A stretch of 64,000 bases of DNA from Verrucomicrobium sp. BvORR106 (lineage in GTDB: Bacteria > Verrucomicrobiota > Verrucomicrobiia > Verrucomicrobiales > Verrucomicrobiaceae): NCBI RefSeq assembly GCF_000739655.1, contig NZ_BATR01000122.1, positions 1-64,000 of the forward strand, written 5' to 3'. Of the stretch, positions 27,727-50,923 are shown one piece after another (the stretch's first letter is position 1; each line of letters starts with the position of its first letter). Both the position numbers and the translations under genes were made by a program. Below the pieces are notes generated by a model, which was not told the origin of the DNA, ran no database searches, and saw only the letters and a list, made by a program, of their open reading frames with translations.

Positions 27727-28179
27727 ATGGCATCCTATACCTCCGGCCCCAAAGAAGACCGCCCCATTCGCATCCAGCTCGTCAAGTCAGGCGAGTACGA
27801 TCTCAAAGTGCTCGACTCCAGTGAGAGTCAATCCAGCAATGGAAACGACATGATCGAGCTTAAGTTCGAGGTGATCCTCGAAGGCGACACCCCTGGCCCC
27901 ATCATTTACGACAACCTCGTTTTCACGGAAAACTCTGCCTGGAAGATTGACCAGTTCCGCCGCGCCATTGGCGAAAACGTGGTGGAAGGGGAGGAGGTGG
28001 AGGTTGATGCGGATGTTTTCCTTGGCAAACGCTTCCGTGCTTTCCTCAAGCAGGAGAAGGACCGCAACGACAGCTCCATCAAGCGCAACCGGGTGGGCAG
28101 TTACCTGGAACCGAAGCCGGGCGACAAAACCCAAGCCCCGGCCACCAGCGGCGCGGAAGATGATGATCTTCCGTTCTAA
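27727..28179 (+). CDS. DUF669-like single-stranded-DNA-binding protein
   Basis: 150 residues. The core (GEYDLKVLDSSESQSSNGND, then MIELKFEVILEGDTPGPIIY) matches DUF669 phage proteins, and the C-terminus DDDLPF copies the acidic tip (DDDIPF) through which SSB proteins recruit their partners. It is probably the phage SSB. It lies at the end of the recombination cassette, after a 40-bp gap, with an operator-like TGCGCAT element just downstream. Confidence 0.8.
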   Translation: MASYTSGPKEDRPIRIQLVKSGEYDLKVLDSSESQSSNGNDMIELKFEVILEGDTPGPIIYDNLVFTENSAWKIDQFRRAIGENVVEGEEVEVDADVFLGKRFRAFLKQEKDRNDSSIKRNRVGSYLEPKPGDKTQAPATSGAEDDDLPF

Positions 28180-28197
28180 CCTTTTTTTCGCCGCTTA

Positions 28198-28217
28198 AAT
28201 GCGCATTTAATGCGTAT
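28198..28217. promoter_or_regulatory. TGCGCAT operator-like element, copy 2
   Basis: AAATGCGCATTTAATGCGTAT spans about 28197-28217: two half-sites in 11-bp phase, between the SSB-like gene and the next gene. Confidence 0.6.
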
Positions 28218-28279
28218 GGAATATCCTTGGGCGGGCTGGATATTCCGGCCCGCTCATTAAAGAGCAACCCAACATTCCA

Positions 28280-28795
28280 ATGCTCCCCACTATCCCCCCT
28301 CAATCCCGTTACATCTTCTCGGGTAATTTCACAAACCGCCATTCGGAATTCCCCTGGCTCGTGCGGCGCGCAGATCAACCCCTTTGCCACTGCGTCCCGT
28401 GCATGTTTGTGGAGGCTCGGCACGTCATTTTCACCCCCTCCGGTGAGGAAGAGCAAAAGCAGGGTTGCAAGATGACGGCAACCATGAACGTACAAGGCCG
28501 GGAAGGTGTGCGCTTTGGCAACACCTTCCAAGGGCGGCAGATCCTCCCGCTTGAACCACTGGTGGAGGATCGCCCCTCACCGGAGTTGCTGAAAGCTACG
28601 CAAGAGGCGCTCGACCTCCACGCCATGAACACCGGCTTTGTCCGGCTCCTCTTCACCCCGGAGGGCTTCAAGGTGGGGATCACCGGGGAGCTTGTGGAGA
28701 GCGTCTTTATTCTCCGCCTCACCCCTGACGGCAGTATTTCCGCAGTCCTTTACCCAACTCCTGCCTTTGAAAACAGCAACAGCCCCTCAGCCTAA
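28280..28795 (+). CDS. Hypothetical phage protein
   Basis: 171 residues, MLPTIPPQSRYIFSGNFTNR at the start. Contains a Cys-rich bit (QPLCHCVPCMF) that might bind a metal, and a C-terminal half of alternating strands (GFVRLLFTPEGFKVGITGEL). No family recognised. Other frames here have worse composition. It lies downstream of the TGCGCAT element, which may control it. Confidence 0.6.
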   Translation: MLPTIPPQSRYIFSGNFTNRHSEFPWLVRRADQPLCHCVPCMFVEARHVIFTPSGEEEQKQGCKMTATMNVQGREGVRFGNTFQGRQILPLEPLVEDRPSPELLKATQEALDLHAMNTGFVRLLFTPEGFKVGITGELVESVFILRLTPDGSISAVLYPTPAFENSNSPSA

Positions 28796-28817
28796 CCCAC
28801 CACCCCCCGCCGACACA

Positions 28818-29204
28818 GTGAAATCATTCTCTTACTTCCTCTCTGGTCTCCTCTTTGGTGCCATCCTCTGTATTCCCTTCATGCGTCCATTGCCGGGCTT
28901 TGTCTCTCCATTGCTCGCGCTGGTGGCGGTGGTGACGCTCCTGGTTGCGGCAGGTCTGCCCCGGCTCAACTCCGGCGGGTTCCTTCACTTCGCGGCGGTG
29001 CGTGTTCAGAAGGTGGAGCTGGATCTCCTTCGGAAGCGCATCAAGTCACTTCGAGCGGTGATCGAGTTCTATGGAGCGCATCGCTTCTACTCCTCCGGTG
29101 CCTGCCAGAAGGACAGGGGAGCGGTTGCCCGTCGCGCCCTGCAATATGACGACAACGGCCAGACCAGTTCCAGCATTCTTAAGCTCCCCAACGGCGAGGA
29201 CTGA
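28818..29204 (+). CDS. Small membrane protein with two TM helices
   Basis: 128 residues from GTG 28818 (VKSFSYFLSGLLFGAILCIP); the longer frame from 28638 lies inside the previous gene. Two hydrophobic helices (YFLSGLLFGAILCIPF and FVSPLLALVAVVTLLVAAGL) precede a basic helical tail (KVELDLLRKRIKSLRAVIEF). Function unknown. A strong terminator follows 30 bp later. Confidence 0.6.
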   Translation: MKSFSYFLSGLLFGAILCIPFMRPLPGFVSPLLALVAVVTLLVAAGLPRLNSGGFLHFAAVRVQKVELDLLRKRIKSLRAVIEFYGAHRFYSSGACQKDRGAVARRALQYDDNGQTSSSILKLPNGED

Positions 29205-29232
29205 CACACGAGAAGCAAGGAAACCACTAAGC

Positions 29233-29267
29233 GCGGCGGCGGCTGAACGGCTCCCGCCGCTTTTTTT
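29233..29267 (+). terminator. Rho-independent terminator
   Basis: GCGGCGG (29233-29239) pairs with CCGCCGC (29254-29260), followed by seven T (29261-29267). It sits directly before the helicase gene. Confidence 0.8.
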
Positions 29268-29275
29268 GCCATCAC

Positions 29276-32017
29276 ATGACGATTAGACCGTATCAGCAGG
29301 AGATTTTAGAGCGGGTGATTGCCGCTTTTGAGGAATTTGACCGCGTGCAGGTGACTTCCGCCACCGGGTCAGGGAAAACGATCATCACGAGCGAGCTTAT
29401 GCGCCTGGAAGAAGGGCGCTCACTCTTCCTCGCGGACGGTACGGAGCTTGTCTTGCAAAACTCAGACAAGTATCACAAGCACACCGGCGACTTTGCCGCC
29501 GTCGAAATGGAGAAGCTCAAGGCGCGCCCCTACGAGCGGAAAGTGACTATTGCCAGCGCGCAGACCTTGCACCGGCGGCTTGAGAAGTATCCGGCGGACT
29601 ACTTCGCAAAGATCATTGTGGATGAATGTTTTCCGGCGGGGACGCTTGTCGATGGCAGGCCAATTGAGTCCTTCAAAATTGGGGATGAAATCACTGCATT
29701 CGATGAAGTGACAGGCACGCTCAAGCAAAGCCGAGTGACGGACGTGCTTTGCCATGTGACTCACAACCCGCTAGTTGAGGTGAGAGTGCAAGGGAAGCGG
29801 ATTCGATGCACCCCTAACCACCCATTCTGGACGCAACGGGGATGGGTGCCCGCTGCTTTGGTTGACTCCGGTGACTCGGTGCTAACCACCGAAACACTTG
29901 AAGACCTATCCCTCTCAAGCTTGCCAAGTCTGCGGAACGCAGTTCTCACCATCGAAGAGCCAGCATCACAACCGGAAGCACAAGCCAAATGCGGCATGGT
30001 GTTGCTCCCGGGCGTGTCAGAGTGCGCATTGCTCCGCGCTACGGAAAGTGCAAAATCCGATGCACGACCCGAAGGTGAGAGCGATGGTTTCGACCAAGCT
30101 AAGGGCGATGGGCTGGAAGCCAACAGTCAGAGGAGGGAACGGGAAACCGTTGCCTCCGGAGCATATAGCGATTGCTGCGATGCTGGGCTGGAAAACGGAA
30201 GTGGCGATTGCCACGAAATCGCGACACCTGGGACTCGGACTGCCGACCTGCTACAAACTGGACATTGCGCACGAGGGGTTGAAGATTGCGCTGGAGATCG
30301 ACGGAAATTCCCACAACGTGACTGTGAGGAAAGAGCAAGATGCGAAAAAGGACGCGTTCTTAGCTGGGCTCGGGTGGAAGGTGTTGAGAGTGTCGAAGAA
30401 GGAAGCGCAACAGAACCCGCAGGCTATCGTTTCGCGCGTGCTGTCTATAATCTGACGGTTTCCACCTATTCAACCTACCTCGTGCAGGGAGTGGTGGTGC
30501 ACAATTGCCACCGCAACACACTGGGCGGCATGGCTCAGAAGATCCTCAAACACTTTGAAAGTGCAAAGGTGCTTGGGATGACGGGGAGCCCGAAGGGGCC
30601 GAAGGGGCGCAGCTTGAGCGAGTATTACCAGCACATCGCGCATGACGTGGGGCTTGAAAGGTTGATTCGCGAGGGCTGGCTTGCTCGCATTGTTTTGAAG
30701 TGTATCCCGCTTGGCGTGGATCTCTCCCACGTGGGCACCGCCAGCGATGGGGACTACAAGCTAGGGGAGCTTGACGAAGTGGTTGAGCCTCACTTGCTCA
30801 AGGCCGCGCAGATCCTTGCTCACCACGGAAAGGGGAGGAAGTCCGTTGTGTTCGTGCCGCTCGTGAAAACGGCATACAAGTTCGCCACCGCCTGCCGTGC
30901 GGTGGGGCTGAAAGCCGTGGCGGTGGATGGGGACGACAAGAGCTCGCTTACGCACTTCACGCACGGCAACGCTGACGTGATCGTGAACGCGGCTCTCCTT
31001 ACGACCGGCTGGGATTGTGACCTGGTTGATTGCGTGATGATCCTCCGCCCCACGAAGAGTGAGAACCTATTCCGCCAGATGGTGGGGAGGGGCACACGTC
31101 CCCGTTACATGGAGGGCTTTGACCCTAACGCGGACATGCACAACCACGAGTTGCGCCGGGAGGCAATGCGCCTGGGGCCAAAGGCAAACCTTTTGCTCAT
31201 CGACCCGCTCTTCATGACGGATGACGTGAAGCTAATCGGCGCGGCCCGGCTCATGGCGCGGGATGGAGACCTTGAAGCCGCCATTGCGAAGCATCTCGCG
31301 AGCATGGCTCCCGGAGAAGATAATCTATTCGCGGACGTTGAAGCCGTGGACCTCCTGGACGCTGACGAAAAGGTTGAGAAGGACGCGGCGGAGATCCGAG
31401 AGCTTTCGCTCAAGAAGAAGCTCGAAGCCGCTGCAAACAAGAAGGAGCGCACGGTTGACGCGGTGGAGTTCTTCCTTGCCCTTCATGAGAAGGAGTTTGC
31501 GGAATACACCCCGGAGCATGATTGGGAAGGGGAACCGCCTTCCGAAGGGCAAAGGAAGCTCTTGGAGAAAAATGGCTTTGACCCGGACGCGATCAAATAC
31601 AAGGGGCAGGCCGTGGCGATCTTGGAGCTTGTGGCAACGCGCCGGGATGCTGGGCTTGCCTCCCCGGCTCAAGTGAAGGCGCTCCGCAAGCTGGGGCATT
31701 CCAATCCCGACCTTGCCACTTTCGACGAAGCAAAGAAGTTCATCGCGAGCGCGGCACTTCGCGGGTGGGCTCCTCTTGTGCAGAAGCCGGAAGCCAAACC
31801 TAACACGCCCAGAGTGTGGCGGAGTGTCTCCGGAAACACCCTGGAGGGAGTGTTTGTGAAACTGACAAAGCAGGGCGCTACGCTCCGGCTTGCCGGTGGG
31901 CGGGTGATGGAGTTGCCGCTTGAGCGGTTCGTTGAAGATGACCGCATTGCACTCATGCACCTCGCTCATGAGGAGCAAAAGAGCAACCCACGCCCACGCT
32001 ATAAATTTCGTGTCTAA
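29276..32017 (+). CDS. Superfamily-2 DEAD/DEAH-type helicase interrupted by an intein
   Basis: 913 residues as precursor. Helicase motifs: Q-like RPYQQEIL, Walker A SATGSGKT, motif II VDE|CH, MTGSPKGPKGRS, and motif VI QMVGRGTRPRY. The DECH box is split between Glu and Cys by a 293-residue intein (29627-30505); splicing would give a 620-residue helicase of normal layout. The C-terminal 250 residues are charged and contain GQRKLLEKNGFDPDAIKY, typical of phage helicases. The gene lies between the recombination cassette and primase-helicase, so it serves DNA replication or recombination. Confidence 0.9.
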   Translation: MTIRPYQQEILERVIAAFEEFDRVQVTSATGSGKTIITSELMRLEEGRSLFLADGTELVLQNSDKYHKHTGDFAAVEMEKLKARPYERKVTIASAQTLHRRLEKYPADYFAKIIVDECFPAGTLVDGRPIESFKIGDEITAFDEVTGTLKQSRVTDVLCHVTHNPLVEVRVQGKRIRCTPNHPFWTQRGWVPAALVDSGDSVLTTETLEDLSLSSLPSLRNAVLTIEEPASQPEAQAKCGMVLLPGVSECALLRATESAKSDARPEGESDGFDQAKGDGLEANSQRRERETVASGAYSDCCDAGLENGSGDCHEIATPGTRTADLLQTGHCARGVEDCAGDRRKFPQRDCEERARCEKGRVLSWARVEGVESVEEGSATEPAGYRFARAVYNLTVSTYSTYLVQGVVVHNCHRNTLGGMAQKILKHFESAKVLGMTGSPKGPKGRSLSEYYQHIAHDVGLERLIREGWLARIVLKCIPLGVDLSHVGTASDGDYKLGELDEVVEPHLLKAAQILAHHGKGRKSVVFVPLVKTAYKFATACRAVGLKAVAVDGDDKSSLTHFTHGNADVIVNAALLTTGWDCDLVDCVMILRPTKSENLFRQMVGRGTRPRYMEGFDPNADMHNHELRREAMRLGPKANLLLIDPLFMTDDVKLIGAARLMARDGDLEAAIAKHLASMAPGEDNLFADVEAVDLLDADEKVEKDAAEIRELSLKKKLEAAANKKERTVDAVEFFLALHEKEFAEYTPEHDWEGEPPSEGQRKLLEKNGFDPDAIKYKGQAVAILELVATRRDAGLASPAQVKALRKLGHSNPDLATFDEAKKFIASAALRGWAPLVQKPEAKPNTPRVWRSVSGNTLEGVFVKLTKQGATLRLAGGRVMELPLERFVEDDRIALMHLAHEEQKSNPRPRYKFRV
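29627..30505 (+). mobile_element. Intein in the helicase DECH box, with a nuclease ORF in another frame
   Basis: 293 residues in the helicase frame. Block A starts with Cys1 (CFPAGTLVDGRPIESFKIGD); block B is KRIRCTPNHPFWTQRGW (TxxH); block F/G is VYNLTVSTYSTYLVQGVVVH followed by Asn, and the +1 residue is Cys: a complete Cys1/HN/Cys+1 set. Between blocks B and F the helicase frame stays open for about 190 codons but has poor composition (for example SDCCDAGLENGSGDCHEIAT), while the frame +1 to it encodes a nuclease. The splicing parts therefore flank an overprinted homing-endonuclease-like gene. Confidence 0.88.
29898..30455 (+). CDS. Vsr/DUF559-like homing endonuclease, out of frame inside the intein
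   Basis: 185 residues from TTG 29898, in the frame +1 relative to the helicase; an in-frame TAA lies just upstream (29883). An N-terminal zinc-finger-like part has C9, C12, C35/C36 and C40 (ACQVCGTQF, WCCSRAC). The C-terminal part is a PD-(D/E)XK fold of Vsr/DUF559 type: YKLDIAHEGLKIALEIDGNS, then DAKKDAFLAGLGWKVLRVS. It fills exactly the gap between the N- and C-terminal splicing blocks. I see no good ribosome-binding site, so its mode of expression is open. A homing role is inferred from family and position. Confidence 0.78.
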   Translation: MKTYPSQACQVCGTQFSPSKSQHHNRKHKPNAAWCCSRACQSAHCSALRKVQNPMHDPKVRAMVSTKLRAMGWKPTVRGGNGKPLPPEHIAIAAMLGWKTEVAIATKSRHLGLGLPTCYKLDIAHEGLKIALEIDGNSHNVTVRKEQDAKKDAFLAGLGWKVLRVSKKEAQQNPQAIVSRVLSII

Positions 32018-32020
32018 TTA

Positions 32021-32041
32021 AATACGCATTAAATACGCATT
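32021..32041. promoter_or_regulatory. TGCGCAT operator-like element, copy 3
   Basis: AATACGCATTAAATACGCAT (32021-32040): two ATACGCAT half-sites in 11-bp phase, between the helicase stop and the primase-helicase start at 32062. Confidence 0.55.
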
Positions 32042-32061
32042 CAAAGCCTTTCCTCAATTCC

Positions 32062-34335
32062 ATGTCACGATTCAAATACACATCCGTCCCTCAAGACAAC
32101 CCCCACGCTCACGCGAGCAACGGCGACACGCTGCCGAATAGTGTGCAAGAGTACCTCGACAACGGAGCCGCACAAGGCGGACGCAACCGCGCGCTTTTCG
32201 CGGCAGCGTGCCAACTCCGGGACATTGGGGCAACGGAGGGGTTCGCCGTGGAAACGCTTCTCTTGCGGGCCACTCAAGACGGTCTCAAGCCGGGAGAGGC
32301 TACCCACGCCATCAAGAGCGCGTTCGCGGCTTCCCGCCGGGAGCCTCCTACCGGGAGCACCGGCCAGCCCTGGCAGCTGTCAAACAACCGCAGGCCCGCC
32401 CCTGCCATGGTTGCCCGCCCCTCTCAGAAGACCGCCAAGCCCGGCGCTATCAGTGAATCCCGGCCCATCCCACTTCCCGAGACGATAGCTGACGGCTTCA
32501 AGACGCTCCTGCTTACCGCCTTCAAGGAAGGGGAGGGCGTATGCTTGGCTCCCACTCGTGAGAATGAGGATGGAAGCCGGACGCCAGTACGAGGAACAAC
32601 CCTCACCCGCGAGGCGTGGCTTGAGAAGTTGAAGAAAAAGGGATCGCTCAGCAAGATCTACTCCACAAAGGAAGGGCTCTTTGTGCGCGTCAATCCGATG
32701 AAGACCGGGGGCAAGGGGACAAATGACGACGTTACCGCCTTCCGGCATGCCCTCGTGGAGTTCGACACGGATGCCCAAGGACAGGACATCCCAAAGGAAT
32801 TGCAGCTCGGGGCAATCATCCACTCTGGCCTTCCAATCACAGCCATCCTCGACAGCGGAAACAAAAGCGTGCACGCCTGGGTGCGCGTGGATGCCGCCAA
32901 CCTGGAGGAATATGAGGCGCGTGTGGACGCGGTTTATGCGCTCTTCGATTCTGCCGCGTTGGACCCTTCCAACCGCAACCCGTCGCGGCTCTCGCGGTGC
33001 CCGGAGGGGCGGCGCACCGAGAAAGGCGAAGTGAGAGAGCAACGATTGCTTGCCTTGAACCTGGGGGCGAAGAGCTGGGCGGACTTCGAGCGTGTTCGCA
33101 ACACGGCAAACCTTGGGGAGCCTATCCGGCTGGACTACCTCCTAAACTACAACACCAAGGAAGATCCAAACAACATGATCGGCAACCGGTGGCTTTGCCT
33201 CGGTAGCTCTCTCGTGATCGTCTCTCAATCCGGCGTTGGCAAAAGCTCCCTCAACATGCAGCTCGCGATTGGCTGGGCGGCTGGCCGTGAGGATATGACT
33301 TTCGGGATTAAGCCGGTGCGCCCGATGAAGCAGCTTATCTTGCAGGCCGAAAACGACGAGGGCGACCTTGCCGAAGCCGCACAAGGGGTATTCTTCGCGC
33401 AAGAGATCAGCGCGGAAGAGCGGGCGGTTATCAACGAGAACCTTCTTTGGCACCGCATCACGTCCGCCACCGGTGAAGAGTTCTGCCGCACGGTGGAGGA
33501 CTTGGTTACACTCCATAAACCAGACATTGTCTGGATTGACCCCCTGATTAACTTCATTGGGGACGACCTCAGCGAGGCGAGTGTGATTGCGCAGTTCTGC
33601 ACCGGCTGGCTCAATGCCATCAGTCAGAAGACGGGCGTTATCTTCGCGCTCATTCACCACACCGGGAAACCCCCGAAAGATGGGGCATCACGAGGAACGA
33701 ACTCAGACCTTGCTTATGCGGGGCTCGGTTCGTCCGCCCTGGTGAACTGGGCTCGTGAGGTGATGGTTCTCTCTCGCATCAAGACTCCCGAAGGTGACCC
33801 CGCCACATTCTCACTCACCGCCTGCAAACGCCGGAAGCGCGCGGGCATGAGAGACATGAGCGGCGAGGTGAGCGAGGAGATTTACATTCGGCACGCAGCG
33901 GACGGCACTATCCGTTGGGAGCAGTGCGACAAGCCGGAAGCGCCAGAGAAGGCGAAGAAGGGGAGCAAGAAGGAGGACAAGGCACCAGCGGCGGGCGGCT
34001 ACGCGTTGAAGAAGAAAGGAGAGGGGACAGAAACGATTCCTGGCGTTCTGGAGCGCGAGGACGGCACGGGCGAGAGTGGAGACAGCGCCGCCCTCACTCA
34101 AGGCGCGCCAGAAGCCCCGCAATCGCGAAGCTACACCCTCCGGAGAGGCAGGCCCTCAAAGCTTCCTCGTGAGGCTCAAGCCGCCATCATTGCCGCCATT
34201 CGAGCAAACGGCGGACTCATCACCCCGGCGGAAAGAGAGCAGTTTGCGACCACCTACGGAGTCAGCACGATGACAATTCGACGCTTCGAGGATGCAGCAA
34301 ACGGAAAAGAAGAGGACCGCTCAGAAGAAAAATAA
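32062..34335 (+). CDS. Phage primase-helicase (PriCT-like, AEP-like and RepA/AAA_25 parts)
   Basis: 757 residues. N-terminal 90 residues follow a PriCT pattern (QGGRNRALFAAACQLRDIGA). Residues about 150-340 look like an archaeo-eukaryotic-type primase: ALVEFDTDAQ (DxD), then DSGNKSVHAWVRVD (the sxH motif), then DPSNRNPSRLSRCP. Next comes a RecA-like helicase core: Walker A SQSGVGKSSLN, Walker B PDIVWIDPLINF, FALIHHTGKPPKDGASRGT. A charged linker leads to a C-terminal HTH (TPAEREQFATTYGVSTMTIR). It should prime and unwind at the phage origin; the repeat-rich block just downstream is a candidate origin. Confidence 0.82.
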   Translation: MSRFKYTSVPQDNPHAHASNGDTLPNSVQEYLDNGAAQGGRNRALFAAACQLRDIGATEGFAVETLLLRATQDGLKPGEATHAIKSAFAASRREPPTGSTGQPWQLSNNRRPAPAMVARPSQKTAKPGAISESRPIPLPETIADGFKTLLLTAFKEGEGVCLAPTRENEDGSRTPVRGTTLTREAWLEKLKKKGSLSKIYSTKEGLFVRVNPMKTGGKGTNDDVTAFRHALVEFDTDAQGQDIPKELQLGAIIHSGLPITAILDSGNKSVHAWVRVDAANLEEYEARVDAVYALFDSAALDPSNRNPSRLSRCPEGRRTEKGEVREQRLLALNLGAKSWADFERVRNTANLGEPIRLDYLLNYNTKEDPNNMIGNRWLCLGSSLVIVSQSGVGKSSLNMQLAIGWAAGREDMTFGIKPVRPMKQLILQAENDEGDLAEAAQGVFFAQEISAEERAVINENLLWHRITSATGEEFCRTVEDLVTLHKPDIVWIDPLINFIGDDLSEASVIAQFCTGWLNAISQKTGVIFALIHHTGKPPKDGASRGTNSDLAYAGLGSSALVNWAREVMVLSRIKTPEGDPATFSLTACKRRKRAGMRDMSGEVSEEIYIRHAADGTIRWEQCDKPEAPEKAKKGSKKEDKAPAAGGYALKKKGEGTETIPGVLEREDGTGESGDSAALTQGAPEAPQSRSYTLRRGRPSKLPREAQAAIIAAIRANGGLITPAEREQFATTYGVSTMTIRRFEDAANGKEEDRSEEK

Positions 34336-42717: not shown

Positions 42718-42789
42718 CGTAGGGAGCTTTGGAAGCCTCCGAGTCTCATAAGCTCGGCGAAGCAGGTTCGATTCCTGCCCCTGCATCCA
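42718..42789 (+). tRNA. tRNA-Met(CAT)-like, with shortened D arm
   Basis: Anticodon arm CGAGT-CTCATAA-GCTCG gives anticodon CAT. T arm GCAGG-TTCGATT-CCTGC is perfect, and CCA is encoded at 42787-42789. The 5' CGTAGGG (42718-42724) pairs with CCCTGCA except for a C1-A72 mismatch, the hallmark of initiator tRNA. At 72 nt it is 4 or 5 short, and the D arm is poor; an alternative fold has a better D arm but no acceptor stem. It may be a phage tRNA or a decaying one. Confidence 0.5.
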
Positions 42790-44220: not shown

Positions 44221-44682
44221 TCAAAAGAACGTGAATGCAACCAAGCGTTCAACCGTCTCGCGAGTGAGTTGGGAGTCTACTAGCCGGATGACCCGCCAGC
44301 CATGGAGCACCGCCTCCATGTATTTCTCGCAATCGTCCGTGAAGCCGGTGGCGGTGTTGTGCCGCCCCTGGATGTGAATGCCGCCCTCAATTTCGATAAT
44401 TGTCCGGCTCTCGACGTGGGTAAAATCGGCGCGCCATTTGCGGAAAGGGTGAAACATAAATTCCCGCAGGAGCGGGGAGCCGCCGCAAGCTTTCCAGAGG
44501 AATAGGAATTTTTCCTCAAGCTGGGAGCCCTGCATTCTCGGCAGAGCCATTGCCGCCTCTATCCTGGCGGCTTCGCTTTTGCCAGCGTGGAAAAACTCCA
44601 ACTCACGCGAGCAGGGCGCGGCGGTGGAGATTCGGCGGGTGCGTTTCGTTGACGGTCGGGATTTTTTGACTCGCGGCTTCAT
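44221..44682 (-). CDS. Vsr/DUF559-like endonuclease beside the terminase
   Basis: 153 residues from ATG 44682. SQLEEKFLFLWKACGG, then KWRADFTHVESRTIIEIEGG (catalytic D and E), then DDCEKYMEAVLHGWRVIRL give a PD-(D/E)XK fold of Vsr/DUF559 type, related in pattern to the intein nuclease of this prophage. The N-terminal 40 residues are basic. Its start is 12 bp from the divergent terminase small-subunit start. It may help packaging or be a free-standing homing enzyme; both are inference. Confidence 0.75.
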   Translation of the reverse strand: MKPRVKKSRPSTKRTRRISTAAPCSRELEFFHAGKSEAARIEAAMALPRMQGSQLEEKFLFLWKACGGSPLLREFMFHPFRKWRADFTHVESRTIIEIEGGIHIQGRHNTATGFTDDCEKYMEAVLHGWRVIRLVDSQLTRETVERLVAFTFF

Positions 44683-49340: not shown

Positions 49341-49847
49341 TTAACGCACCATTGCCTGAGCGAGGCAGTGGATGACTTCCTTGCCGTCAAGGTATGCCTG
49401 AACGACTTCGTTGTAGGTTGTTGTAGAATTGATTTTGCCCTCATGGGCAAAATCATTCCTCCACACAATCAAGTTATTGTATGACGTCTTTATGTCCCGT
49501 CTGTGCAAACGAAGGTGAGACTTGGCTGTCGATTCCAAGAGCCGCGAAAACTTCTTGGTGTAGCGGGTGCCAAATCGGGGGATGTACTCATCTTTTACGA
49601 TTTGTAACTTAATGCGTCCATTTATGCGCTTGAAGTGAGACTCTACAAACGCTCCGAGCACTGAGTGTTTTCGATTGGCGAAGTCGCAGAAAATATCCTT
49701 TATTGCCATTTCGTAAACCGTTACGGCTGCCACCGATACGAAGCCAACGTATTTGGCCGTCAGTAGCGGATTGCCTAGAGTAGGTACGACACCGTTAAGG
49801 TGTGCGACAACGTCGTCGGCGTGTTGAAAGTGAGTGGCGTACGGCAC
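49341..49847 (-). CDS. HEPN-domain protein (RiboL-PSP-HEPN-like)
   Basis: 168 residues, helical. VWRNDFAHEG holds the HEPN Rx4H motif (R130, H135), the catalytic pair of HEPN ribonucleases, and the helix spacing agrees. It starts 5 bp after the DUF262 gene on the same strand, so the two form an operon. HEPN proteins act in toxin-antitoxin and antiphage systems; such a role here is inferred. Confidence 0.72.
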   Translation of the reverse strand: MPYATHFQHADDVVAHLNGVVPTLGNPLLTAKYVGFVSVAAVTVYEMAIKDIFCDFANRKHSVLGAFVESHFKRINGRIKLQIVKDEYIPRFGTRYTKKFSRLLESTAKSHLRLHRRDIKTSYNNLIVWRNDFAHEGKINSTTTYNEVVQAYLDGKEVIHCLAQAMVR

Positions 49848-49852
49848 GGCTC

Positions 49853-50923
49853 TTAGCTGAAAAGAAGTTCTTGTACGCGTGATATGCGTGCCTGCACGGT
49901 TTTCGTATCGGTTGTGTTGATTCGAGTGTGCTCGTCAAACACGCCATCCCTAAGGAGATCAGCGTACCGAGACTCTAAGTCAATGGATGAAACCTTTCTG
50001 TGCTGTCTCAGAAGTACGCTCATAACGGAGTCAAGAGCTGAAACGTTCAGGGGGCCTCTGAGGTGGAAAGGCTTTTCTCCTAGTGCATCAACTACTATCT
50101 TTGTGATCGAGGGGAATACTAGGAAAAAGTTCGTCGCCTTCTTTGTTGTCCCTGAGTCGTTTTGTAACATTGCCTTGTTTAGGAACTCCTTCATGGGCTT
50201 CTCATACTTCGTCTCTGGTCCTACCAATGAGAACACCCTTAGAAGCAGCTCCACATCCCTTTGGTGCTTGTCCAGATACTTCTTACCTAAGATTTTGCGC
50301 CAATTTGCGTCTTTGTTAGCTTCCTTGAGCTTTTTGTTGATTCCGCCACGAAATACACAATTGCGAATTTCCTGGGGCTTTAGTGGGGTTCCCCCCGTAT
50401 TGAGGCGCTCAAATATGTGGTATGCGCTTGTGCTCTCACCTACTGGGGACAACTGACGGATGTTAACCGCTCGTAAGACCGCCTGTTTCAGTTTGCGCTG
50501 GTCTGATTCGTCGAGCTCTGAAAAGCGTTTTCCGTGATATGGACTACTGTTGTGGAGACCTGTCAGTCTGAAAACTTGACGCTTCCCATGTGTGCTTTCC
50601 CGACCAAAGTAGCCTTCAAAGTAGAACACAATGCTCAAAATGCGTTGTTGTCCGTCGATTACTAGATTCTTGTTCTTGTCGTCTATATAGAAGAACACAG
50701 GTGGCACAGGTAGCCCAGACAAGAACGAATCGATCAGCAGAGACGCTTGACGAATTGACCAAACAAACTCTCGTTGATAGTCCGGGATCACAATATCACT
50801 GTCCTGCCACATTTGGGATATTCCCGAAAGGGTGAAATCGGAAGGGTAGCTGGCGATATCATATGTTACTGACAGAGTTTCCTCCTCCTGTTCCTCCTCA
50901 AGTTCAAGTTCGTCTTCTGCCAT
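49853..50923 (-). CDS. DUF262 (GmrSD-N-like) protein
   Basis: 356 residues. DUF262 motifs: IVIPDYQREFVWSIRQASLL (about residues 45-64) and VIDGQQRILSIVF (88-100), with AYHIFERLNTGGTPLKPQEI later. In GmrS-type restriction proteins this domain is an NTPase and acts with a DUF1524 HNH nuclease; no HNH domain is present here, and a HEPN gene follows instead. AT-richer and on the opposite strand inside the head operon, so probably an acquired defence or exclusion cassette. Confidence 0.82.
   Translation of the reverse strand: MAEDELELEEEQEEETLSVTYDIASYPSDFTLSGISQMWQDSDIVIPDYQREFVWSIRQASLLIDSFLSGLPVPPVFFYIDDKNKNLVIDGQQRILSIVFYFEGYFGRESTHGKRQVFRLTGLHNSSPYHGKRFSELDESDQRKLKQAVLRAVNIRQLSPVGESTSAYHIFERLNTGGTPLKPQEIRNCVFRGGINKKLKEANKDANWRKILGKKYLDKHQRDVELLLRVFSLVGPETKYEKPMKEFLNKAMLQNDSGTTKKATNFFLVFPSITKIVVDALGEKPFHLRGPLNVSALDSVMSVLLRQHRKVSSIDLESRYADLLRDGVFDEHTRINTTDTKTVQARISRVQELLFS

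Follow-up and report, generated by a model that had tools for sequence, protein, structure and literature searches.

RESULTS

The helicase gene, its intein and the overprinted nuclease

The DNA analyzed in this study (the window, to whose positions all coordinates refer) is 64,000 nt in length and corresponds to positions 1–64,000 of contig NZ_BATR01000122.1 of Verrucomicrobium sp. BvORR106. One open reading frame (ORF) of its prophage (29276–32017, plus strand, like all parts of this gene described below) encodes a superfamily 2 (SF2) helicase, which contains ResIII and Helicase_C domains and matches the phrog_16 DNA helicase with an E-value of 7.6e-58. Motif II of the helicase is interrupted by an intein, and the DNA of the intein carries a nuclease gene in the +1 frame, an arrangement that we call overprinted. 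The final two N-extein codons, which code for Asp-Glu of the DExH box, are located at 29621–29626; the insertion point is immediately 3′ of them, and the Cys+1 codon of the C-extein is located at 30506–30508. Once spliced, the motif would read DE-CHR.

The intein (29627–30505) is 293 codons in size and runs from Cys1 to His-Asn. Its residues 18–293 match Pfam Intein_splicing (PF14890, E 1.2e-10, above the curated cut-off), and PT-HINT is also matched. The splicing residues are Cys1, Thr-Pro-Asn-His as block B, the C-terminal His-Asn and Cys+1. In the AlphaFold model, the two ends of the intein are confident and the middle is of low confidence. The N-terminal splicing part (IntN, residues 1–98, 29627–29920) has block means of the predicted local distance difference test (pLDDT) of 95–98 for residues 1–90 and of 65 for residues 91–100; the C-terminal splicing part (IntC, residues 241–293, 30347–30505) has values of 85–97, except 54 for residues 261–270. 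Between them, the host-frame linker that lies beneath the nuclease core (29921–30346) contains no stop codon and is predicted to be disordered, with block values of 41–53 for residues 101–240. Foldseek search with the model retrieved intein splicing domains of Hint fold, the first of which is Mtu RecA (E 3.4e-6, template modeling (TM) score 0.77 on the target). With its Hint domain, Cys1, TxxH block B, HN end and +1 nucleophile, the insert resembles class-1 inteins and is predicted to splice. That a complete intein splits the DE^CH box of the helicase, as had been proposed in an earlier sequence-only reading, is thus confirmed.

The nuclease gene (29898–30455) starts with TTG and ends with TGA; one TAA in the same frame (29883–29885) sets the upstream limit of its ORF. 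The 185-residue product contains zinc-finger-like Cys pairs and one DUF559/EDxHD-like catalytic domain. It matches DUF559 with an E-value of 2e-9, above the cut-off as is the Intein_splicing match of the 293-residue intein, and REase_MTES_1575 below the cut-off of that family. The AlphaFold model, built with 47 sequences, has a mean pLDDT of 92.7. Against the PDB, Foldseek ranked I-Bth0305I (3r3p) first, with an E-value of 0.016, a probability of 1.00 and a TM score of 0.65 on the target; the Neisseria endonuclease-like protein 3hrl was placed close (E 0.043, probability 1.00, TM score 0.75 on the target). A PDB sequence search with the nuclease returned nothing useful. The E/D/H/D-type catalytic residues and the Vsr/PD-(D/E)xK-like fold assign the protein to the EDxHD/DUF559 nucleases, as a predicted DNA-cleaving enzyme. 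Of the earlier description as a zinc finger plus DUF559/Vsr nuclease, the DUF559 part was upheld, whereas "Vsr-type" can be narrowed to the EDxHD/I-Bth0305I branch on the basis of fold and residues.

The nuclease had been described as filling exactly the gap between the two splicing parts, which is not the case. Its last ∼109 nt lie within the folded C-terminal splicing part (residues 241–277 of the host frame, with low confidence for 261–270). The stop codon falls within intein block F (VYNL), so that ∼36 intein residues are dual-coded. In this doubly coding overlap (30347–30455), the C-terminal strand and helices of the nuclease share DNA with one intein strand and the start of block F. The 5′ end of the nuclease overlaps one predicted, low-confidence intein helix (residues 91–98). 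Judged by the models, the nuclease therefore overlaps mostly the linker, plus ∼36 residues of the C-terminal splicing part. Within the linker, the conserved host-frame Leu209-Gln210 and the nuclease Tyr119-Lys120 share the same bases.

The overprinted arrangement is shared by a large family

To collect relatives, phage records were searched with the nuclease by tblastn, and viral contigs and species genomes were scanned with sequence patterns; the loci were classified with hidden Markov models (HMMs) of the nuclease, IntN and IntC. Forty-three phage records matched at E ≤ 1e-3, including 37 from Vibrio, 2 from Corynebacterium, 2 uncultured, 1 from Pseudomonas and 1 from Leptolyngbya. In all seven that were examined, the nuclease lies in the +1 frame of one annotated coding sequence (CDS) and is itself unannotated, which makes the family easy to miss; the CDS is named helicase in four of them, and hypothetical, P-loop or coil-containing protein in the others. 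The species-genome scan gave 53 loci, whose record titles span many phyla, including Cyanobacteria, Planctomycetes, Chloroflexi, Bacteroides, Clostridia and Proteobacteria; most of the records are metagenome bins, and the phylum is the one given in the title. From each viral scan the best 80 relatives were kept, out of 287, 343 and 294, and the two later scans used patterns that include D122 or E133/D135 of the nuclease.

The first two scans and the phage records together gave 145 loci, the window and three copies of it included. In 119 of these, one uninterrupted IntN-IntC ORF carries the nuclease in +1; the remaining 26, in which IntN was not detectable, are two contig ends (L049 and L122) and 24 distant DUF559-type loci without intein match. 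Two further viral scans added 160 loci with nuclease match, 155 of them overprinted in the same way. After removal of the copies of the window locus (L001, L005 and L013) from this and all other non-redundant counts, 302 loci were scored: 277 strong nuclease members with the window counted in, 271 of which are overprinted, that is, in +1 within one uninterrupted intein-helicase ORF, and 25 weak DUF559 loci, which were counted apart and have no intein match. None of the 277 strong members has the nuclease in frame with the intein. Because the scans overlap, the 271 loci include repeats; the distinct nuclease proteins number 196 at 100% identity and 178 clusters at 80%, and it is 178 such clusters that stand behind the 271 overprinted loci. 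The sequence-only reading had called the arrangement very unusual, a fair view of one window, whereas it belongs to a widespread family.

A pattern-free search of 387 genomes of the window's phylum, with at most eight candidates scored per genome, gave six matches at E ≤ 1e-15. Four of them, namely the window locus and three with E-values of 2e-39 or better, are overprinted in +1; two weak matches sit in other ORFs without intein matches. Pfam check of nine divergent host genes found helicase or SNF2 domains above the cut-off in eight, and in L004 only one sub-threshold DEAD match.

Intein motifs were compared by pattern in 89 clusters from the window, the phage records and the first two scans. 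Cys1 is present in all 89; the C-terminal residues are HN in 77 and SN in 12; and the +1 residue is Cys in 79, Ser in 8 and Thr in 2, although both Thr rows and two of the SN rows were misparsed, N|CH standing a few residues earlier. The insertion lies directly after DE of motif II in 84 clusters and one or two residues further on in five.

Conservation of the nuclease was scored in all 178 clusters. Cysteines at positions 9, 12, 36 and 40 (29922–30017) are found in 160, 159, 166 and 166 clusters, respectively, and may bind zinc. The probable catalytic residues D122, E133, D135 and H139 (30261–30314) occur together in 177 clusters and D148 in 178; the individual residues presumably correspond to the EDxHD catalytic positions known for that family. 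As the patterns of the later scans contain D122 or E133/D135, the clusters from those scans are not independent in this respect. Among the 80 clusters from scans with patterns lacking these residues, 79 retain all four.

Six strong members are not overprinted. L049, L213 and L225 are contig ends, L221 and L253 have no intein match, and L171 has one host-frame stop. At L221 (3944–6081), the homologous nuclease is free-standing just upstream of an intein-less helicase, whose frame slips one base exactly at the DE^ intein site; this slip could be a cleavage scar or an assembly error. L253 (3338–3979) is a strong nuclease relative with no intein detected nearby. The stop of L171 is a TGA just before the nuclease (L171:4009), the only one of its kind among the strong members; it may result from an error or mark a transition towards a split intein. 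Apart from these, the helicases of L145 and L323 seem, by eye, to carry a second intein in the Walker A motif, and L095 has one LAGLIDADG match upstream.

Start signals of the nuclease frame

An in-frame ATG, GTG or TTG lies before or near the nuclease HMM match in all 89 clusters, and it is ATG in 84 of them. Compared with the remainder of the host ORFs, read in the same phase, this region is 1.85 times as dense in ATG. Of 181 nuclease-frame ATGs, 24% have Shine-Dalgarno pairing of −6 kcal/mol or stronger, versus 6.8% of 1242 control ATGs; by Mann-Whitney test (p 8e-7), the pairing energies are stronger than those of the controls, which are out-of-frame ATGs within these host ORFs. In 8 of the 89 clusters, the nuclease frame has a stop codon no more than four codons before the HMM match. 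These signals support internal initiation of the nuclease across the family.

The nuclease could instead be made by programmed +1 ribosomal frameshift, as a fusion to the N-extein and IntN. The constant +1 phase at all 271 overlap loci would suit such a route, as would the poor start signal of the window copy. It is met, however, by the prevalence of in-frame ATGs with pairing stronger than that of the controls, and by the eight clusters in which the frame opens so late that there is little room for a frameshift. As known from prfB, the release-factor type of +1 shift is driven by an in-frame stop codon, and the host frame offers no such stop here. Frameshift fusion as the main route is thus disfavoured, and we consider it improbable.

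Open frames and dual constraint

No host-frame stop was found over the nuclease in any of the 178 clusters, whereas all 178 have stops in the third frame; the statement that the intein frame stays free of stops while the +1 frame encodes the nuclease thus holds in all of these clusters. The classification did not demand an open host frame, since a broken frame would be scored as split, as happened for L171. As a null model, synonymous codons were shuffled within the nuclease of the same 89 clusters, in which 0 have host-frame and 89 have third-frame stops. Only 0.56 (own codons) or 1.38 (host codon usage) open host frames would be expected, and with host codon usage 754 host-frame stops are expected across the 89 clusters. 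In the family exteins, 5616 overlapping +1-frame stretches as long as the nuclease were counted, of which 25 are open, at 7 of 151 loci. The +1 ORF is not due to chance.

Substitutions were counted in 28 pairs of loci, with no locus used twice (27 pairs for the C-extein). By host codon position, they are distributed 30/22/48% in IntN and 29/25/46% in the C-extein; by nuclease codon position, they are distributed 27/24/49% in the nuclease core. Over the core, the free position is therefore shifted from host position 3 to nuclease position 3, which is host position 1. The C-terminal overlap has no free position (host 38/26/35%, 28 pairs), and its substitution rate is 0.70 per codon, compared to 1.01 in the nuclease core, 1.12 in IntN and 1.20 in the C-extein. 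Five of the 28 pairs re-use near-identical sequence (L044/L066, L043/L047, L086/L098, L023/L030 and L011/L085). With the 23 pairs left after their omission, the result is unchanged: 29/22/49% in IntN, 29/24/47% in the C-extein, 27/23/49% in the core and 40/25/35% in the overlap, at rates of 1.04, 1.11, 0.96 and 0.60, respectively. Judged by these substitution patterns, the C-terminal overlap is doubly constrained. The switch of codon position and the common phase of the 271 loci indicate that purifying selection acts on the second frame, which is conserved in the related inteins, a point on which the sequence-only reading had let its case depend.

The nuclease frame might also be in decay, an old homing gene carried along as a passenger solely because a needed intein is encoded by the same DNA. 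According to PMC13405050, homing genes usually gather inactivating mutations after invasion, which would favor such decay. On the other hand, the substitutions concentrate at the third positions of the nuclease, and the four putative catalytic residues persist in 79 of the 80 clusters retrieved without them in the pattern. We regard decay as unlikely, slightly more so than the frameshift.

Empty sites, mini-inteins and split inteins at the motif II site

The intein is a precise insertion in an otherwise continuous gene, for which empty homologous sites were found. The exteins of CP-T1 (DE-[intein]-C) and vB_VchM-138 (empty, DEAHH) are 98.6% identical, and at +1 the empty vB_VchM-138 has Ala whereas the filled CP-T1 has Cys. 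In the second pair, phages 1.027.O (filled) and 1.024.O (empty, DECHH), the exteins are 92.8% identical. Mini-inteins occupy the same site in Vibrio phages K461, K453 and K389 (150 aa) and 13VV501A (143 aa). Like the overprinted intein, they are inserted at this point; different from it, they are 143–150 aa in size and have no nuclease. Compared with phage 1.027.O, the extein identity is 90.6% for K461 and 79.7% for 13VV501A, and the splicing parts are ∼48% identical in both pairs.

Other phages have the intein split. In Salmonella phage STP4-a, the DE^CH site is broken, with IntN ending in a stop codon and IntC opening a second ORF; one 876-base ORF, which starts in the +2 phase of the N-half, lies between the halves. 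Proteus phage PM2 has the same layout. At loci L149 (1814–4540) and L152 (1814–4546), helicases of T4-like phages are broken at this site, and the two halves are separated by an ORF of its own. The IntN query matched 83 phage records, and among the ten of these that were examined, Dickeya and Campylobacter phages are split, one Microcystis phage has no room for a nuclease, and one mycobacteriophage portal intein has an HNH domain noted in its record.

With such neighbors at one site, the window intein could itself be fractured as in T4-like phages, the host frame through the nuclease being unused. STP4-a, PM2 and the single host-frame stop of L171 speak for this possibility. A split intein, however, would not need an open host frame, and the frame is open in 178 of 178 clusters, where about one is expected among 89; both splicing parts lie in one uninterrupted ORF in the window and in 271 of the 277 strong members. 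A split intein is accordingly very improbable.

In a Mantel-type comparison of 174 of the 178 clusters, the distance correlations were 0.418 between nuclease and splicing domain, 0.462 between nuclease and extein and 0.444 between splicing domain and extein (each 0.005, 199 permutations).

Prophage setting

The prophage neighborhood contains genes for a Sak4-like annealing protein, an exonuclease, SSB, the intein-bearing helicase, a primase, a ParB-like protein, terminase, portal, major head protein and tape measure. At E ≤ 1e-30, the helicase was absent from three further genomes of this genus, among them one that is 76% complete. Within the prophage, one tRNA-Met (cat) is located at 42718–42789 (plus strand). 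A minus-strand stretch at 44221–44580 matches phrog_503 (E 1.4e-26, unknown function), a family to which the intein nuclease, too, has a weak match. Also on the minus strand and downstream of the portal gene, two ORFs of 168 and 356 aa (49341–50923) resemble inserted cargo.

DISCUSSION

All our analyses were performed on sequences and predicted structures, and they make it very probable that the window carries a mobile intein whose EDxHD-type homing endonuclease is overprinted and initiated internally. Ribosomes in the helicase frame would make a precursor in which the Hint domain is interrupted by the ∼140-residue disordered linker, and splicing of the Hint domain would restore the DE-CH motif of the helicase. 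Other ribosomes may initiate inside the intein in the +1 frame (TTG at 29898) and produce the separate 185-residue EDxHD/DUF559 nuclease. This nuclease would cut helicase genes that lack the intein, within the sequence encoding motif II. The copy with the intein would then serve as repair template, plausibly with the help of the Sak4-like annealing protein and the exonuclease of the phage, so that the intein and the nuclease gene would be copied into the site and the flanking codons co-converted, which is consistent with an empty/filled pair. The host frame would be kept free of stops because any stop would destroy the helicase, and the nuclease frame would be maintained by selection on nuclease function.

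Two further explanations can be dealt with briefly. The insert might be an RNA intron with an intron-encoded nuclease, and PMC3943268 lists EDxHD nucleases among the group I homing endonuclease families; however, the Rfam search of 28000–33000 gave no group I or group II intron, nor any other match, up to E 1, and an open host frame encodes the Hint domain together with its splicing residues, which makes an intron highly improbable. Paired indels from sequencing or assembly error, or a chance ORF, can practically be dismissed: nothing was found in their favor, and the same +1 phase recurs at 271 loci in many separate phage, viral-contig and genome records. The arrangement looks like a selected gene design and not like an error.

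Several observations weigh against the mobile, internally initiated element proposed above. The nuclease start in the window is a TTG without Shine-Dalgarno pairing. No Foldseek match of the nuclease against the PDB reached E 0.001, and I-Bth0305I stands at 0.016; for this reason, fold, residues and Pfam family jointly carry the EDxHD assignment. Of the two empty/filled pairs, one has Cys at +1 already in its empty site. L221 and L253 have no intein, and L171 has its host-frame stop. Moreover, the similar distance correlations (0.42–0.46) do not show tighter co-inheritance of nuclease and splicing domain, so that frequent jumping between helicases is not supported and mobility rests on the empty/filled comparisons.

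If the proposed element is real, indels and host-frame stops in the nuclease may be purged by selection on the helicase, and the homing gene might escape its usual decay; the nuclease may in this way benefit from being entangled with the helicase. The arrangement is a natural gene entanglement in an intein, in which one DNA stretch codes for a protein-splicing element and, in the second frame, for the nuclease expected to spread it. More tentatively, and with somewhat more doubt than confidence, we suggest that overprinted inteins form an old, stable and widespread class, that the overlap itself is adaptive, and that the class may be a source or a derivative of the mini and fractured inteins at the motif II site. 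The family makes two questions testable: by what means homing genes escape decay, and in what relation the mini, full and fractured inteins of a single site stand to one another. The many single-chain inteins with a long built-in linker could also act as scaffolds for engineering.

Like canonical large inteins with in-frame LAGLIDADG or HNH nucleases, the overprinted intein has class-1-like splicing residues and is inserted in a conserved motif. Different from them, its nuclease is not a domain of the intein polypeptide, with none of the 277 strong members in frame. Fractured genes with split inteins and Vsr-like homing endonucleases, of the same nuclease fold class, were reportedly described by Dassa and coworkers in 2009. 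STP4-a shares the DE^CH site with the window, but its halves are separate, with the 876-base ORF between them, whereas the overprinted intein has its halves together in a single unbroken ORF, with which the nuclease overlaps. I-Bth0305I, which is said to be intron-encoded, is the best structural match of the overprinted nuclease and resembles it in its phage origin and in the tethering of the catalytic domain to a DNA-binding part, although the identity in the structural alignment is 18% and the Foldseek E-value 0.016. The EDxHD homing endonuclease family, to which I-Bth0305I belongs, is described in PMC3943268.

Among the published cases found, the ShiLan domain (PMC11855218) comes closest: an insert of a phage methylase that holds an HNH nuclease out of frame. 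Its authors placed the nuclease in the "third frame", found no intein or intron splicing element and thought that the protein retains the insert. A methylase with an out-of-frame HNH is also mentioned in an announcement (PMC12613952). The ShiLan domain and the overprinted intein are both inserts in a phage gene that are open in the host frame and carry a homing-type nuclease in another frame; in addition, both are patchy in distribution and have an unexplained translation start. The overprinted intein differs in its DUF559/EDxHD instead of HNH nuclease, in its +1 phase and in its complete Hint domain, by which, unlike in ShiLan, the helicase can be restored through splicing. In the literature searched, we found no description of the overprinted architecture as an intein class; the preprint 10.1101/2025.01.02.630785, on actinobacteriophage inteins of "non-canonical architecture", may report a comparable case, and we do not claim priority. 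Intein and nuclease were each known before, and what may be new is the overprinted architecture that combines them.

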